The notes beneath the pieces are model-generated. The model saw only the letters and a list, made by a program, of their open reading frames with translations. It was not told the DNA's origin and did no database searches. A stretch of 64,000 nt of DNA from Nocardioides marmoriginsengisoli (GTDB taxonomy: Bacteria; Actinomycetota; Actinomycetes; Propionibacteriales; Nocardioidaceae). Made by a program: the position numbers and the translations under genes. The DNA lies in the NCBI RefSeq assembly GCF_003725695.1, contig NZ_RJSE01000008.1:21801-85800 (forward strand), in the 5' to 3' direction. Of this stretch, positions 9,550-14,292 are shown piece by piece (position 1 is the first letter of the stretch; each line of letters starts with the position of its first letter).

Positions 9550-9669
9550 CGGCGGGTCCACACCCGGCGGATCTCGGCAGTCGTCCACAGGGTTCCGCCC
9601 CGAGAGCTGCCTGTCCGTGCTCGCAACTAGGCTGGGGCGACTCCTTCCGATGCCGAGGTGAACCGTTCC

Positions 9670-11760
9670 GTGACCAGCGCAGATCGACTGCTCGAGGGCC
9701 TCGACCCCGAGCAGCGCCAGGTCGCCGAGGCGTTGCGCGGTCCGGTGCGGGTGCTGGCCGGAGCCGGCACCGGCAAGACCCGGGCGATCACCCACCGGAT
9801 CGCGTACGGCGTCGCGGCCGGCGTCTACAACCCGTCCGAGGTGCTGGCGGTGACGTTCACCGCGCGCGCGGCCGGCGAGATGCGGACGCGGCTGCGGGCG
9901 TTGGGCGCTCCCGGCGTCCAGGCGCGGACCTTCCACGCCGCCGCGCTGCGCCAGCTGCGGTACTTCTGGCCGAAGGTGTACGGCGGCGAGCCGCCCGAGC
10001 TGACCGCGTCGAAGATCCCGGTCGTGGCGGGTGCCGCGCGGCGCAACCGGCTGGAGGTCGACCAGGCCCGGCTGCGGGACCTGGCGAGCGAGATCGAGTG
10101 GTCCAAGGTGACCAACGTGCGCCCGGACGACTACGAGCGGATGGCGCCGTTGCGCGGGCGCGAGGTCAGCGGACTCACCGCGGGCGAGGTCGCGCACGTC
10201 TTCTCGACGTACGAGGAGCTCAAGCGCGAGCAGGGCCGGATGGACATGGAGGACGTGCTGCTGATCGCCGCTGCGCTGCTGGCGGAGGACGACCGGGTCT
10301 CGGCCCAGGTGCGCTCGCAGTACAAGTGGTTCGTCGTCGACGAGTTCCAGGACGTCAGCCCGATCCAGGCCGCGCTGCTGGATCTGTGGCTCGGCGGGCG
10401 CGACGAGCTCTGCGTCGTCGGTGACCCGGCGCAGACGATCTACTCGTTCGCGGGGGCGCGGGCGGCGTACCTGAGCGAGTTCTCCGGCAAGTACCCGGCG
10501 ACCACCAGCATCGAGCTGGTCCGCAACTACCGCTCGACGCCGCAGGTGATCGCGGCGGCCAACACGCTGCTGAAGGGCACCGCCACCGGGTCGGTGCAGC
10601 TCCGGGCGCAGCAGCCCGCCGGCGCCGAGCTGACCTGGTACGAGGCGACCGACGAGGTCGCCGAGGCGGACGCGGTCGCCGCGGAGGTGGCCCGGCTGCT
10701 CGCCGCCGGGACGCCGCTGCGCGAGATGGCGGTGCTGTTCCGGATCAACGCCCAGTCGGAGACCTTCGAGGAAGCCCTCACCGCGCGCTCGATCCCGTAC
10801 GTCGTCCGCGGCGCCGCCCGGTTCTTCGAGCGCCCCGAGGTCCGCCAGGCCCTGGCCCTGCTCCGCGCCAGCGCCCGGGCCGGCGAGGCGGCCAGCGACG
10901 GCCTGCTCGACCAGGTCCGCGGCGTCCTCGGCGGGATGGGCTGGAGCACGGAGCCGCCCGCGGCCCGCGGCCAGGCCCGCGACCGCTGGGAGTCGCTGAT
11001 GGCGCTGGTCTCCCAGGCCGAGGAGTACGGCACGGCCGAGCTGGCCCCGACCCTGGAGGGGTTCGTCGCCGAGCTGGATCGCCGGGCCACCGAGCAGCAC
11101 GCCCCGGTCGCCGAGGGCGTCACCCTGGCCACCCTGCACACCGCGAAGGGCCTGGAGTGGGACGCGGTCTTCCTCGCCGGGATGCAGGAGGGCTCGATGC
11201 CGATCACCTACGCCGACACCCCGGCGGCGGTGGAGGAGGAGCGCCGGCTGCTCTACGTGGGCATCACCCGCGCCCGGAAGCACCTGATGCTCTCCTGGTC
11301 GCTGGCCCGCAACCCGGGCGGCCAGGCCCGCCGCAAGCCGTCACGCTTCCTGTCCGGCCTCCGCCCGGAGTCGGTGATGGACCGTCCGGCCGCGGCGGCT
11401 TCCTCGGCCCGGAGCAAGCGCCGGGCGAAGGCGTCGACCTGCAAGCTCTGCCAGCGCCCGCTCGCATCCGCCCGGGAGCGGAACCGCGGATTCTGCGGCG
11501 AGTGCCCGATCCCGTACGACGAGGACGTGTTCGAGTCGTTGAAGGCCTGGCGCCGTGGTCGGGTGGAGATCGAGTCCGCCGAGGCCGAGAAGCCGGTGCC
11601 GGCGTTCGTGATCTTCAGCGACGCCGTCCTGGAGGCGCTCGCCGAGGTGGTGCCGACCACCCGGCAGGCGATGCTGGGCATCCCCGGGATCGGCCCGGCG
11701 AAGCTCGAGAAGTACGGCGACGAGCTGCTCGCCGTCCTGGCCGAAAAGAAATCTGAATAA
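9670..11760 (+). CDS. uvrD2: ATP-dependent DNA helicase UvrD2
   Basis: 696 residues from the GTG at 9670, which has GAGGTG 9 bases upstream; a GTG at 9658 is also in frame. This is a superfamily 1A helicase. AGAGTGKT (Walker A) is at residues 30-37, VVDEFQDVSP (Walker B) near residue 222, and further UvrD motifs include QTIYSFAGA, RNYRS, TLHTAKGLEWD and VGITRAR. Near residue 590 a tetracysteine module (CKLC, then CGEC) appears, followed by a C-terminal HRDC domain. This combination defines mycobacterial-type UvrD2, a 3'-5' helicase used in DNA repair. whiB7 follows, an order known from mycobacteria. The 3' end of the gene is unusually A-rich and overlaps the whiB7 promoter region. Confidence 0.94.
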   Translation: MTSADRLLEGLDPEQRQVAEALRGPVRVLAGAGTGKTRAITHRIAYGVAAGVYNPSEVLAVTFTARAAGEMRTRLRALGAPGVQARTFHAAALRQLRYFWPKVYGGEPPELTASKIPVVAGAARRNRLEVDQARLRDLASEIEWSKVTNVRPDDYERMAPLRGREVSGLTAGEVAHVFSTYEELKREQGRMDMEDVLLIAAALLAEDDRVSAQVRSQYKWFVVDEFQDVSPIQAALLDLWLGGRDELCVVGDPAQTIYSFAGARAAYLSEFSGKYPATTSIELVRNYRSTPQVIAAANTLLKGTATGSVQLRAQQPAGAELTWYEATDEVAEADAVAAEVARLLAAGTPLREMAVLFRINAQSETFEEALTARSIPYVVRGAARFFERPEVRQALALLRASARAGEAASDGLLDQVRGVLGGMGWSTEPPAARGQARDRWESLMALVSQAEEYGTAELAPTLEGFVAELDRRATEQHAPVAEGVTLATLHTAKGLEWDAVFLAGMQEGSMPITYADTPAAVEEERRLLYVGITRARKHLMLSWSLARNPGGQARRKPSRFLSGLRPESVMDRPAAAASSARSKRRAKASTCKLCQRPLASARERNRGFCGECPIPYDEDVFESLKAWRRGRVEIESAEAEKPVPAFVIFSDAVLEALAEVVPTTRQAMLGIPGIGPAKLEKYGDELLAVLAEKKSE

Positions 11761-11765
11761 ATGAT

Positions 11766-11795
11766 TTGCACGCCGTGTTAGCCGCGGCGTACCTT
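11766..11795 (+). promoter_or_regulatory. Promoter of the whiB7 leader transcript
   Basis: TTGCAC (11766-11771), an 18-base spacer and TACCTT (11790-11795). Just upstream is an A/T-rich run (AAAAGAAATCTGAATAAATG, 11743-11762) that stands out in this GC-rich DNA and lies next to the -35 box. WhiB7 of mycobacteria activates its own promoter through an AT-rich patch beside the -35 element using its AT-hook, so this arrangement suggests autoregulation. Predicted start of transcription is near 11802. Confidence 0.65.
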
Positions 11796-11869
11796 GTCTG
11801 ACGTCATCACACGCGCACTACGGCCCTGACAACGCCGGCGCCCGAAGCCCCGAAGGAGGTGCACGACCC

Positions 11870-12076
11870 ATGAAGAACCAGAACATGAATCAGTCCTGGC
11901 AGACCGTGACGCGGTCCATTTCCATCGTGCCCGTCCACGGTTTTGGCATGGGTGACGTGTGCCCGGAGACCGTCGGCTTCCACGCCGGCACGTCCACTCT
12001 CAAGCGTCGTCACGCAGCAGCCGTCAAGGCCACCCCGGTTATGGGCCGCCAGCCTTGGAGTCCACCTGTCACATGA
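11870..12076 (+). CDS. Leader peptide ORF upstream of whiB7
   Basis: 68 codons from ATG 11870 to TGA 12074-12076, preceded by a near-perfect ribosome site AAGGAGGT (11853-11860) with 9-base spacing. The peptide (MKNQNMNQSWQTVTRSISIV...) resembles no enzyme. It sits between the whiB7 promoter and an intrinsic terminator, and its last codons contain the 5' arm of an antiterminator stem (12052-12063). That makes it a regulatory upstream ORF: ribosomes that reach its stop codon would cover that arm. In mycobacteria and Streptomyces, whiB7/wblC is controlled by this kind of uORF-coupled attenuation when ribosome-targeting antibiotics slow translation. The peptide itself may have no function. Confidence 0.75.
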   Translation: MKNQNMNQSWQTVTRSISIVPVHGFGMGDVCPETVGFHAGTSTLKRRHAAAVKATPVMGRQPWSPPVT

Positions 12077-12106
12077 GTTCTCACTCATCGACCGGACCTC
12101 CAAGGC
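12052..12106 (+). promoter_or_regulatory. Antiterminator stem of the whiB7 leader
   Basis: GCCTTGGAGTCC (12052-12063) is complementary, with one bulged base, to GGACCTCCAAGGC (12094-12106). A smaller perfect hairpin ATGAGT-TCTC-ACTCAT (12073-12088) is nested between the arms and holds the uORF stop codon. The 3' arm overlaps the first five bases of the terminator stem (12102-12106), so the two structures exclude each other. A ribosome terminating at 12076 would block the 5' arm and favour termination; a ribosome stalled earlier would free it. Confidence 0.7.
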
Positions 12107-12147
12107 CGCGAATCCCGATCAAGGGATCCGCGGCCTTCGTGTTTCTC
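12102..12147 (+). terminator. Intrinsic terminator (attenuator) before whiB7
   Basis: AAGGCCGCGAATCCC (12102-12116), loop GATCAA, GGGATCCGCGGCCTT (12123-12137): a 15-base stem with a single mismatch, followed by the U-containing tail CGTGTTTCTC. It lies 54 bases upstream of the whiB7 ATG, inside the same transcript, so it acts as an attenuator rather than a gene-end terminator. Confidence 0.8.
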
Positions 12148-12201
12148 AGAGCAAGACCAGCAGTGAATCAGCGATCGATATCAGAGAAGAGGAGGTGGCA
12201 C

Positions 12202-12477
12202 ATGAGCATCAGCGTTCTGAACCCCGGTGGGTTGGACGAGGATCTGCTCCCGTGTCGCGTGAACGAGGCGGAGCTGTTCTTCGCCGAATCACCTAGTGAC
12301 GTGGAGCTCGCGAAGGCCCTGTGCCAGAGCTGTCCCGTGCGTGTCGAGTGCCTCGCCGGGGCGCTCGAGCGGAAGGAGCCCTGGGGCGTCTGGGGTGGTG
12401 AGCTGTTCCTCTCCGGAGTAGTGATCCCCCGCAAGCGTCCCCGTGGCCGGCCTCGGAAGACCGAGGTCGCAGCCTGA
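12202..12477 (+). CDS. whiB7: WhiB7-type iron-sulfur transcriptional regulator
   Basis: 91 residues. A Wbl protein with four cluster-binding cysteines (C18, C41, C44, C50), the EPWGVWGGE turn at residues 59-67 that contacts the principal sigma factor, and a C-terminal AT-hook RGRPRK (81-86). The AT-hook separates WhiB7/WblC from other Wbl proteins. WhiB7 binds SigA and activates intrinsic antibiotic-resistance genes, including its own. The start is the ATG at 12202 behind GAGGAGGTGG. Expression should be controlled by the upstream ORF and attenuator. The uvrD2 to whiB7 order matches mycobacteria. Very confident. Confidence 0.95.
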   Translation: MSISVLNPGGLDEDLLPCRVNEAELFFAESPSDVELAKALCQSCPVRVECLAGALERKEPWGVWGGELFLSGVVIPRKRPRGRPRKTEVAA

Positions 12478-12541
12478 CCGGCTGCCGACGAGACCACCGA
12501 AAGCCAATGAGATGACCCAGACTTCCGAACGGAGCACCACC

Positions 12542-12709
12542 ATGAGCAACCTCCTTGCAGAGGACCTGGCGCGCGCCCATCTGGCCGCGCGCCTCCAGCA
12601 GGCAGAGTCGCAGAGGCGCGGGCACCAGCTCGCCGCCGCTCGGCGTCTCTCCCGCAAGGCTGAGCGCGCGGCTGCACAGGCACGCTTGGCTCTCGCCCGC
12701 GTGATCTGA
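12542..12709 (+). CDS. Small basic helical protein of unknown function
   Basis: 55 residues (MSNLLAEDLARAHLAARLQQ...), Ala- and Arg-rich, predicted almost entirely helical with heptad-like spacing of Leu and Ala. It follows whiB7 by 64 bases, ends 34 bases before a strong terminator, and is preceded by an ACGGAGCACC ribosome site. It is therefore probably in the whiB7 transcript and induced with it. I do not recognise a characterised family; the positive charge could suit RNA or ribosome binding, but this is only a guess. Confidence 0.6.
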   Translation: MSNLLAEDLARAHLAARLQQAESQRRGHQLAAARRLSRKAERAAAQARLALARVI

Positions 12710-12743
12710 CCAGTTCCAAGACTTCTCGTCGATCGCGGGAAGA

Positions 12744-12785
12744 CCGCCGTCCGACCCTCGGGTCGGGCGGCGGTTTCGCTTTTCC
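12744..12785 (+). terminator. Intrinsic terminator after the whiB7 unit
   Basis: CCGCCGTCCGACCC (12744-12757) pairs with GGGTCGGGCGGCGG (12760-12773), one G-U pair, very short loop, then TTTCGCTTTTCC. It is a strong GC stem with a T-rich tail and closes the whiB7 transcription unit. Confidence 0.8.
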
Positions 12786-12801
12786 TGCGTAGATTGGGCC
12801 C

Positions 12802-12963
12802 ATGACCACGTGCGCGTTCTGCGGGACGGTCGACGAGGGCGACCAGCCGCCGCTGACCTGGGTCAGTGCGACCGAGCGCGGGCGCCAGCAGTGGTTCTGC
12901 GACGCCTGCTCGCGCGAGCACCTGCGGGCGATGGAGTCGAAGCTCGACTCCGAGTGGTGGTAG
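12802..12963 (+). CDS. 53-residue zinc-ribbon protein
   Basis: 53 residues: MTTCAFCG at the start and FCDACSREHLR in the middle give two CxxC pairs (C4/C7 and C33/C36), so a small zinc ribbon is likely. The ending DSEWW and the PPLTW turn are typical of a short uncharacterised actinobacterial family. ATG 12802 lies 6 bases after TAGATT (12790-12795), so it is expressed from its own leaderless promoter. It converges with the ABC1 kinase, 3 bases between stops. Function unknown. Confidence 0.75.
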   Translation: MTTCAFCGTVDEGDQPPLTWVSATERGRQQWFCDACSREHLRAMESKLDSEWW

Positions 12964-12966
12964 GCC

Positions 12967-14292
12967 TCAGCCGGCGAAGCCGGGCAGCGACTCGGTGAGG
13001 ACCTGCCGGAACGGCACCGTGGCGCCGAGCTGGCTCAGCACACCGACGCCGCCGACCCAGGTGCGGTGGATCAGCAGGTACGACGGCGGCAGGTTGAGCC
13101 GCAGCATCACCGAGTAGGCGTCGCCCTTCGGATCGTTGACCCGCTTGAACTGATCCTGCATCCAGGCCCGGGAGAAGGTGAACTCGGGCGTGCTCGCCGG
13201 CTCGACGAACGGCCCCAGGTAGGACCGGAGCTTCTCGGCGTCGACGTTGATCTTCTCCCGGATGAACCCCTCGTCGCGCAGCGCTGTGACCAGGCTGTCG
13301 TAGTCATCCATGCAGGCGATCCGGATCAGCGAGCCCAGCGAGGCCGGCAGCGCCCGCTCCTCGAACCGGGCGACGGCCCCGTAGTCGAGGACGCCGAGGC
13401 GGCCGGGCGAGCCGTCCGGCTCCGGGACGAGGCGGAAGTTGCCGGGGTGCGGGTCGGCGTGCAGCATCCCGGTCCGGGCCGGGGCGCCGAAGAGGAAGCG
13501 CACGAAGCGCTCGCCGTAGTGGTCCCGCTCGGCCTGGGTGCCCTCGCGGATCACCTGGGCCAGCGAGGCCGGGCTGTCCAGCCACGAGCTGACCAGCACC
13601 TTCTCGGTGCCGGCGCGCACCTCGGGGACCACGATGGCCGGGTCGCCGGCGTACTCGGCCGCGAAGACCCGCTGGGCCTCCGCCTCGAGGCGGTAGTCCA
13701 GCTCCTCCTCGGCACGCTCCTGCAGCTCGGTGACGAGCGGCTTCACGTCGATGCCGGGGAACACCGGCCCGAGTCCGCGTGCGACCCGGGCGAGCTGCTT
13801 CAGGTCGTTGCGGAGCGCGTCGCCGGCTCCGGGGTACTGCACCTTCACGGCGACCTCCTCGCCGTCCCAGCGGGCGCGGTGCACCTGCCCGATCGAGGCG
13901 GCCGCGGCCGGTTCGGCATCGAGGTCGGAGAGTCGGTCGGCCTCGGCGCCGAGCTCCTCGGCGAGGATCTGCCGGACGGTGATCGTCGGCATCGGCGGTG
14001 CCGAGTCCTGGAGCCTGGTCAGCTGTTCGCGGTACGGCGCCGCGAGCTCCTCCGGCAGGGCGGCCTCGAAGATCGACATCGCCTGGCCGAACTTCATCGC
14101 CCCGCCCTTGAGCTCCCCGAGCGTCTTGAAGAGCTGTTCCGCGGTGCGCTGCTGGAGCTCGGTCATCACGACCTCGGCGGGAGCGCCGCCGATCCTCTTG
14201 CCCAGACCGATCGCGCTGCGGCCGGCGTACCCGAGGGGCAGCGCCGCCAGCCGGGCGGTCCTGGCGACGGCCTTGCGCGGAAGGTCGGTCAT
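12967..14292 (-). CDS. ABC1/UbiB-family atypical kinase
   Basis: 441 residues from the ATG at 14292, which follows the stop of the next gene by 16 bases and has GACGAGG upstream; a longer frame runs into that gene and was not used. Family marks in order are KFGQAMS (the KxGQ motif), AAASIGQVHRA (ExD/QxxS-type glycine-poor loop), VAVKVQYPG (catalytic Lys), HADPHPGNF (catalytic loop) and LDYGAV (metal-binding Asp). UbiB/COQ8-type proteins are atypical kinase/ATPases tied to quinone or lipid handling. There is no ubiquinone gene nearby and actinobacteria use menaquinone, so the exact partner is unknown. Probably co-transcribed with the cyclodehydratase-like gene upstream. Confidence 0.9.
   Translation of the reverse strand: MTDLPRKAVARTARLAALPLGYAGRSAIGLGKRIGGAPAEVVMTELQQRTAEQLFKTLGELKGGAMKFGQAMSIFEAALPEELAAPYREQLTRLQDSAPPMPTITVRQILAEELGAEADRLSDLDAEPAAAASIGQVHRARWDGEEVAVKVQYPGAGDALRNDLKQLARVARGLGPVFPGIDVKPLVTELQERAEEELDYRLEAEAQRVFAAEYAGDPAIVVPEVRAGTEKVLVSSWLDSPASLAQVIREGTQAERDHYGERFVRFLFGAPARTGMLHADPHPGNFRLVPEPDGSPGRLGVLDYGAVARFEERALPASLGSLIRIACMDDYDSLVTALRDEGFIREKINVDAEKLRSYLGPFVEPASTPEFTFSRAWMQDQFKRVNDPKGDAYSVMLRLNLPPSYLLIHRTWVGGVGVLSQLGATVPFRQVLTESLPGFAG

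Follow-up and report, generated by a model that had tools for sequence, protein, structure and literature searches.

What does the long leader in front of whiB7 do in Nocardioides marmoriginsengisoli? The gene lies at 12202-12477 of a stretch of 64,000 nucleotides (the window; RefSeq assembly GCF_003725695.1, contig NZ_RJSE01000008.1, positions 21,801 to 85,800) from a genome assembly of 4.46 Mb in 16 contigs, and all its features discussed below are on the forward (+) strand. Its leader contains a promoter-like site, an upstream open reading frame (uORF) of 68 codons, and two RNA stems that share some of their bases, one of them a terminator hairpin. We consider the leader to be a ribosome-mediated transcription attenuator of whiB7, with a probability of about 0.88. 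The parts, their conservation and co-variation, and the energetics of masking by a ribosome were computed here; we infer the transcription start, the timing of the leader, the feedback on the promoter and the response to antibiotics.

The terminator hairpin (12102-12137), supported by stem search and by relatives, has two arms of 15 nt each (12102-12116 and 12123-12137) that are 93% complementary. The initial annotation had proposed this stem and also a competing one, and both are present. The competing stem, the inner antiterminator helix, joins a 5' arm in the last uORF codons (12052-12063) to a 3' arm at 12094-12106, and was recovered by folding and by co-variation. All nine bases of 12052-12060 pair with 12098-12106, and beyond one bulged C three more pairs are formed by 12061-12063 with 12094-12096. 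Folding also placed an apical hairpin of the antiterminator (ATGAGT/ACTCAT) at 12072-12087, where it overlaps the uORF stop codon. The region 12045-12145 folds at -43.0 kcal/mol (z -4.9) and the stretch containing the antiterminator only, 12040-12118, with z -5.2; in both cases 0 of 200 shuffles were as good. Before the 3' arm of the terminator has been made, the inner helix is predicted with a probability of 0.99-1.

The claim that only one of the two stems can form holds for the five foot pairs of the terminator that involve the shared bases (12102-12106), but not beyond them: the upper terminator stem is compatible with the antiterminator. In the unmasked stretch 12017-12140, pair probabilities are 0.46-0.78 for the five contested inner pairs and 0.17-0.54 for the five foot pairs, and the two states, if enforced, are at -55.0 and -54.8 kcal/mol, the latter being the terminator. 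Over the full leader (11796-12140) the terminator is favoured (inner pairs 0.12-0.76 versus foot pairs 0.18-0.88).

In order to describe the influence of translation, ribosome footprints were masked in the folding. The footprint sizes are general background values, except for a figure of 26 nt given in an excerpt of PMC13236596. Once the terminator is complete, masks for a ribosome that has arrived at the stop codon (12062-12087 up to 12053-12088) give the foot pairs probabilities of 0.72-1.0 and the inner pairs at most 0.07. Ribosomes 3 or 10 codons before the stop also block the inner helix, and ribosomes 15 or 20 codons before it leave the helix about as free as it is without a ribosome. 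Because the antiterminator stays free in the latter case, stalls in approximately the first 50 codons would permit read-through. The modelling thus agrees with the earlier suggestion that a ribosome finishing the uORF would hide the 5' arm and let termination occur, and that a slowed one would free it.

The switch may be pictured as follows. RNA polymerase would start near 11800, with a ribosome trailing on the uORF. A ribosome that arrives at the stop codon in time would cover the inner 5' arm, allowing the 15-base terminator to close and to end transcription near 12140. A slow ribosome, or one that stalls within about the first 50 of the 68 codons, would let the antiterminator form first and capture the terminator foot, together with much of the terminator 5' arm in relatives. 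The polymerase would then read into whiB7, and the WhiB7 protein would boost its own promoter. A leader that monitors elongation in general, rather than reading one amino acid, fits this scheme.

Conservation was assessed in leaders from a genus search, a family search and 80 named loci. The family survey found a WhiB7 match in 105 of the 149 genomes searched, and the analysis covers those for which loci were given. From a first set of 131 loci, 12 were left out (L001-L004, which are other WhiB genes; L006 and L031-L036, which are second whiB7-like copies; and L005, which is the same place as L007), and removal of 10 identical loci gave 109 distinct leaders. A further five (L060, L088, L089, L107 and L111) were set aside by eye on account of their hairpin, although that of L107 is a plausible terminator. 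The best hairpins of the 104 leaders analysed, some of which are close relatives, are strikingly alike.

The uORF itself, with the strong ribosome site ascribed to it, was found at the expected place by open reading frame (ORF) list and relatives. It runs from 11870 to 12076, ends in TGA (12074-12076), and is preceded by the Shine-Dalgarno (SD) sequence AAGGAGGTG (11853-11861), read from the sequence. In 94 of the 104 leaders, an SD-led ORF of 45 codons or more (SD score of at least 7, with an ATG start counting one) has its stop codon after the inner arm has begun and before the terminator. The same rule yielded 0/104 in each of six control windows shifted by -180 to +90 bases, and 1/104 on the reverse strand. 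A looser rule (15 codons, any SD) found a uORF in all 104, with lengths of 48-197 codons (median 73.5). Pairing of the stop codon in the apical hairpin was also considered. All three stop bases are paired in 48/104 leaders, and control triplets shifted by -6, 9 and 12 are fully paired in 68, 65 and 49 of 104 (by -12, -9 and 6, in 10, 31 and 17). Since some of the shifted triplets pair as often or more, we make no claim on this point. Separately, a KR(R)H-[AVL]-[DNA]-A-like motif lies 22-24 codons ahead of the stop in the 12 genus uORFs shown (window 12002-12031; relatives L008-L018). Of the 11 relatives, 9 keep GAT GCC as a codon pair within it, though much of the uORF varies.

The arms of the inner helix co-vary both in letters and in length; an absence of such co-variation, which by the initial annotation would have spoken against the switch, was therefore not observed. 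Clustering of the 104 leaders at 85% gave 66, of which 60 form alignment A1 (L025, L030, L052, L068, L085 and L093 were left out because they aligned badly). The antiterminator in A1 has 79.5% standard pairs, compared with 76.1 +/- 0.6% after shuffling and at most 50.5% when the arms are slid. Twelve of its pairs changed on both sides (8.1 in shuffled alignments; 3/500 shuffles as high), and the covariation score is 0.167 versus 0.120 (0/500). For the terminator the values are 93.2% standard pairs and a score of 0.095 versus 0.052 (0/500). The tool warns that related sequences can beat every shuffle, and co-variation in length therefore carries more weight. Among 14 loci with the 5' word CTTGGAG, the partner is CTCCAAG in 12 and CTCCAG in 2. 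Among 67 with CTGGAG, it is CTCCAG in 59, CTCCAAG in 1 and another word in 7. Five loci combine another 5' word with CTCCAG, and 18 have neither word on either side; several of these 18 pair strongly by other letters (for example L105, L113, L116, L052), but L025 and L068 do not. Alifold, run on the full 66-sequence alignment, recovered the terminator but not the antiterminator.

Several observations weigh against the attenuator as drawn here. The terminator is followed by a poor U-tract, CGTGTTTCTC, and the terminator scanner did not list the hairpin at 12102-12137. The equilibrium of the bare RNA favours neither stem or, in the whole leader, leans to the terminator, and read-through would therefore depend on kinetics. 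In RNA that still lacks the terminator 3' arm, the masks 12062-12087 and 12059-12086 let the antiterminator form, and it is blocked only by footprints that reach 12056 or further. In addition, the best hairpin of the 5 leaders set aside from the 109 is unlike the rest, the antiterminator structure counted on A1 was picked from the same sequences, and the inner arms pair weakly in L040, L025 and L068 and to a modest degree in L030.

Other explanations of the same parts were considered. An amino-acid-specific attenuator, in which the uORF codons sense one amino acid (alanine is the published mycobacterial candidate), appears unlikely. Excerpts of a review (PMC11550727) cite an alanine response of mycobacterial whiB7. 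Codons 49-51 of the window uORF are Ala-Ala-Ala, the KRH-x-D-A-like motif recurs in the genus, and a ribosome halted at the alanine triplet would, judging by the ribosome modelling, leave the arms free. However, a position profile of uORF codons, which covered alanine, gave no clear excess in the 66 leaders: alanine makes up 0.06-0.09 of the last 12 codons and 0.12-0.20 of those before them, compared with 0.159 in the helicase encoded upstream, and the window uORF has 5 Ala in 68 codons. It is more improbable still that the uORF product acts, either as an arrest peptide on the nascent chain (...WSPPx-stop) or as a free small protein. A Trp-[Ser/Arg]-Pro-Pro tail before the stop is indeed widespread in relatives, and Pro-Pro adjoining a stop codon could slow release, which counts for an arrest peptide. 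However, in loci picked on the peptide alone, the codon after Trp is AGT or AGC in 60, AGA or AGG in 22, and GGT and stop in 1 each of the 84 (of 104) loci with a Trp within the last 10 codons; the other 20 have none there. As Ser is never encoded by TCN (0/60) and exchanges at the same place with Arg encoded by AGA/AGG, never CGN (0/22), the tail follows the RNA arm. The body of the uORF also evolves fast. The ratio pN/pS is 0.71 (757 codon pairs) and 0.57 (1298 codon pairs) in two groups, with a range of 0 to 1.65 in six single pairs, which means weak constraint on the body as a protein.

We regard it as highly improbable that the terminator simply ends transcription of the helicase gene, with the uORF being incidental. 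The helicase stop at 11760 does lie about 340 bases upstream of the terminator, but a promoter-like site is placed between the two, the position of the uORF stop is tied to that of the arms in 94/104 leaders, and the antiterminator is conserved and co-varies. A leader RNA that senses a ligand directly, like a riboswitch, deserves the least credence; it would account for the strong conserved structure, but there is no Rfam match, and inspection of A1 by eye revealed no extra conserved pocket beyond the arms and the terminator.

The ribosome-mediated attenuator also appears to be widely distributed. A covariance model of the element (R1) matched 134 of 197 genomes sampled from the class, in 63 of 91 genera, with 146 matches in total and two matches in each of 12 genomes. 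WhiB7 adjoins 68 of the 70 matches examined (the 30 best and 40 fetched ones); the exceptions are a second weak match (L170) and a match at a contig end (L171). In the genome of N. marmoriginsengisoli itself, the whiB7 leader is the only good match (E 1.7e-15). The next scores are 0.0022 (the opposite strand at the same place) and 0.35, and no other gene of this genome was found under the element. Model matches before whiB7 were also seen in L177, L178, L179 and L182 (family f5, genomes of 1.0-1.7 Mb), where the candidate uORF has 33 codons and low SD scores of 5-6. A search of window positions 10500-13500 against Rfam at E up to 1 gave no match in the leader, and 10 related loci gave none either.

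The initial interpretation was supported in its main lines, but it overstated the exclusivity of the stems and missed an outer helix present in relatives. When the 32 leaders shown were cut before the terminator 3' arm, most folded into one long antiterminator (L083 did not), the outer part of which is a second uORF segment that pairs with the terminator 5' arm and mimics the terminator 3' arm. In the window this segment is weak; it consists of GGG (12043-12045) and CGC (12047-12049), whose partners in the terminator 5' arm are 12114-12116 and 12108-12110, and it was identified by folding and from relatives. In A1, 74.5% of the cells of outer helix 1 are paired and 2 of 5 pairs changed on both sides. 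Column-wise co-variation is weak here because the terminator 5' arm hardly varies, and position profiles and partner swaps were therefore used. In a scan of 16-nt windows against the terminator 5' arm in 104 leaders, the segment adjoining the inner arm on its 5' side has a mean of -11.7 kcal/mol, compared with -6.4 to -8.8 kcal/mol at positions 4-196 nt upstream. In 64 further leaders the values are -11.1 versus -7.3 to -9.2 at 8-160 nt, but these leaders are not independent, as the covariance model by which they were found includes the outer helix. Swapping of partners among 58 of the 66 leaders (those with the inner arm outside 36-62 nt were dropped) gave a mean of -11.15 for own partners and -10.46 +/- 0.16 for swapped ones, which were weaker in 200/200 trials. 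In L172 and L173 (family f4) the uORF word TCCGTGG faces CCACGGA in the terminator arm, where most other leaders have CCGCGG, and L174 shares TCCGT only; these genomes are probably mycobacteria.

Against the outer helix stands that the swap signal comes from few divergent leaders, as about 9 of the 58 own partners are in the best 20% and about 27 in the best half, and that the outer segment ranks first among its own windows in only 30/104 leaders. The segment of the window itself reaches -8.6, which 7 of 20 other windows equal or beat, and 98% of swapped partners would do at least as well. While the terminator 3' arm is still missing, the outer helix of the window has a probability of 0.73-0.97 in a short stretch and 0.20-0.35 in the whole leader; it vanishes once that arm is made, and enforcing it gives an ensemble of -51.1 versus -54.8 kcal/mol for the terminator. 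On balance, we lean slightly towards the view that whiB7 leaders of actinobacteria build their full antiterminator as a long helix in two parts. A uORF mimic of the terminator 3' arm would lie immediately 5' of the inner arm, giving the terminator 5' arm two competing partners over much of its extent. If true, this three-way constraint would explain the near-invariant terminator sequence among leaders and would make the element an actinobacterial RNA family that is tied to one gene and has no Rfam match. The outer helix would then offer a specific refinement, open to testing, of the way in which the terminator is disabled.

Lee, Lee and Roe reportedly described in 2022 (Mol Microbiol 117:179) a uORF-mediated attenuator of whiB7/wblC in mycobacteria and Streptomyces. 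According to excerpts, the uORF and attenuation were seen in RNA-seq of two mycobacteria (Dinan 2014, PMC4128351), and the mechanism is treated in PMC9618640, PMC13393426 and the review PMC11550727. As far as these excerpts go, the antiterminator uses overlapping uORF and terminator sequence, and the leader studied here resembles the known ones in this respect, in its length, SD-led uORF and intrinsic terminator after the uORF, in the downstream gene, and perhaps in its putative A/T promoter element. It differs in its Nocardioidaceae host and in the sequence and length of the uORF, and the excerpts do not mention an outer helix in which the uORF mimics the terminator 3' arm. Masking of the antiterminator by a ribosome at the stop codon and its release by a stalled one are shared with leader-peptide attenuators of the ilvB1/ilvBNC type, as excerpted from PMC13236596. 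In the same excerpts these carry a run of regulatory amino-acid codons, and none is evident here for alanine, the sole amino acid profiled. Among the matches listed in the literature search on whiB7 leaders, there was no mention of Nocardioides. The mechanism is thus already published for mycobacteria and Streptomyces, and the leader described here adds a Nocardioidaceae case. It extends a drug-inducible resistance switch to this family and, judging from a single covariance model, to the majority of the class genomes sampled. The aligned element might be turned into an Rfam family and might serve to distinguish whiB7 from other WhiB genes.

The promoter with an A/T-rich patch beside its -35 box was read from the sequence at the place claimed for it. 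The patch AAAAGAAATCTGAATAAATGAT (11744-11765) directly precedes the -35 box TTGCAC (11766-11771), which an 18-nt spacer separates from the -10 box TACCTT (11790-11795), and transcription would start near 11800. A similar site was the best one in 25/25 relatives shown, with 6-10 of the 12 bases before the -35 being A/T, in a search script that rewarded A/T content. A consensus promoter scan listed no promoter at 11766-11795. Excerpts of PMC7157823 give a WblC promoter motif GAAAWY 3 nt upstream of the -35. The window has ATAAAT there, a 4/6 fit, and L045 and L071 have GAAAAT.

The gene upstream (9658-11760) encodes a UvrD/Rep-type helicase with HRDC domain (PF00580, PF13361, PF00570). Its stop codon sits within the A/T patch, and the leader and then whiB7 follow directly 3'. 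The whiB7 ORF, preceded by the Shine-Dalgarno sequence AGGAGGTG (12190-12197, read from the sequence), encodes a WhiB domain (PF02467, 58.4 bits) and a C-terminal AT hook (PF02178, 17.8 bits), both above cut-off. Its product matched no NCBIfam model at E 0.01; the closest named WhiB7 matches are from a Propionibacteriales metagenome-assembled genome (MAG), Nocardioides pocheonensis and a Nocardioidaceae MAG. A second whiB7-like gene is present in 11 of 24 genus genomes, with 51-65% identity over the matched part. These copies (L006, at G000:C12:73200-73418, and L031-L036) apparently adjoin a different gene and lack the attenuator; no uORF with a W-x-P tail was found near them, save for a spurious call in L006.

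Directly 3' of whiB7, an ORF of 55 aa (12542-12709, +) has no Pfam match but tblastn matches in 85 of the 131 fetched loci, among them Streptomyces L110 and L114. It may be on the same transcript as whiB7, and a GC-rich hairpin ending in a T-rich tail comes after it, near 12743-12785. The sole Rfam match, to b55 (Mycobacterium B11) at 12725-12775 (+), scores 25.3 bits against a cut-off of 70, and most likely reflects merely a hairpin after this ORF. A further ORF of 53 aa (12802-12963, +), again without Pfam match, contains two CxxC pairs, resembles a zinc ribbon, and has tblastn matches in 79 of the 131 loci.

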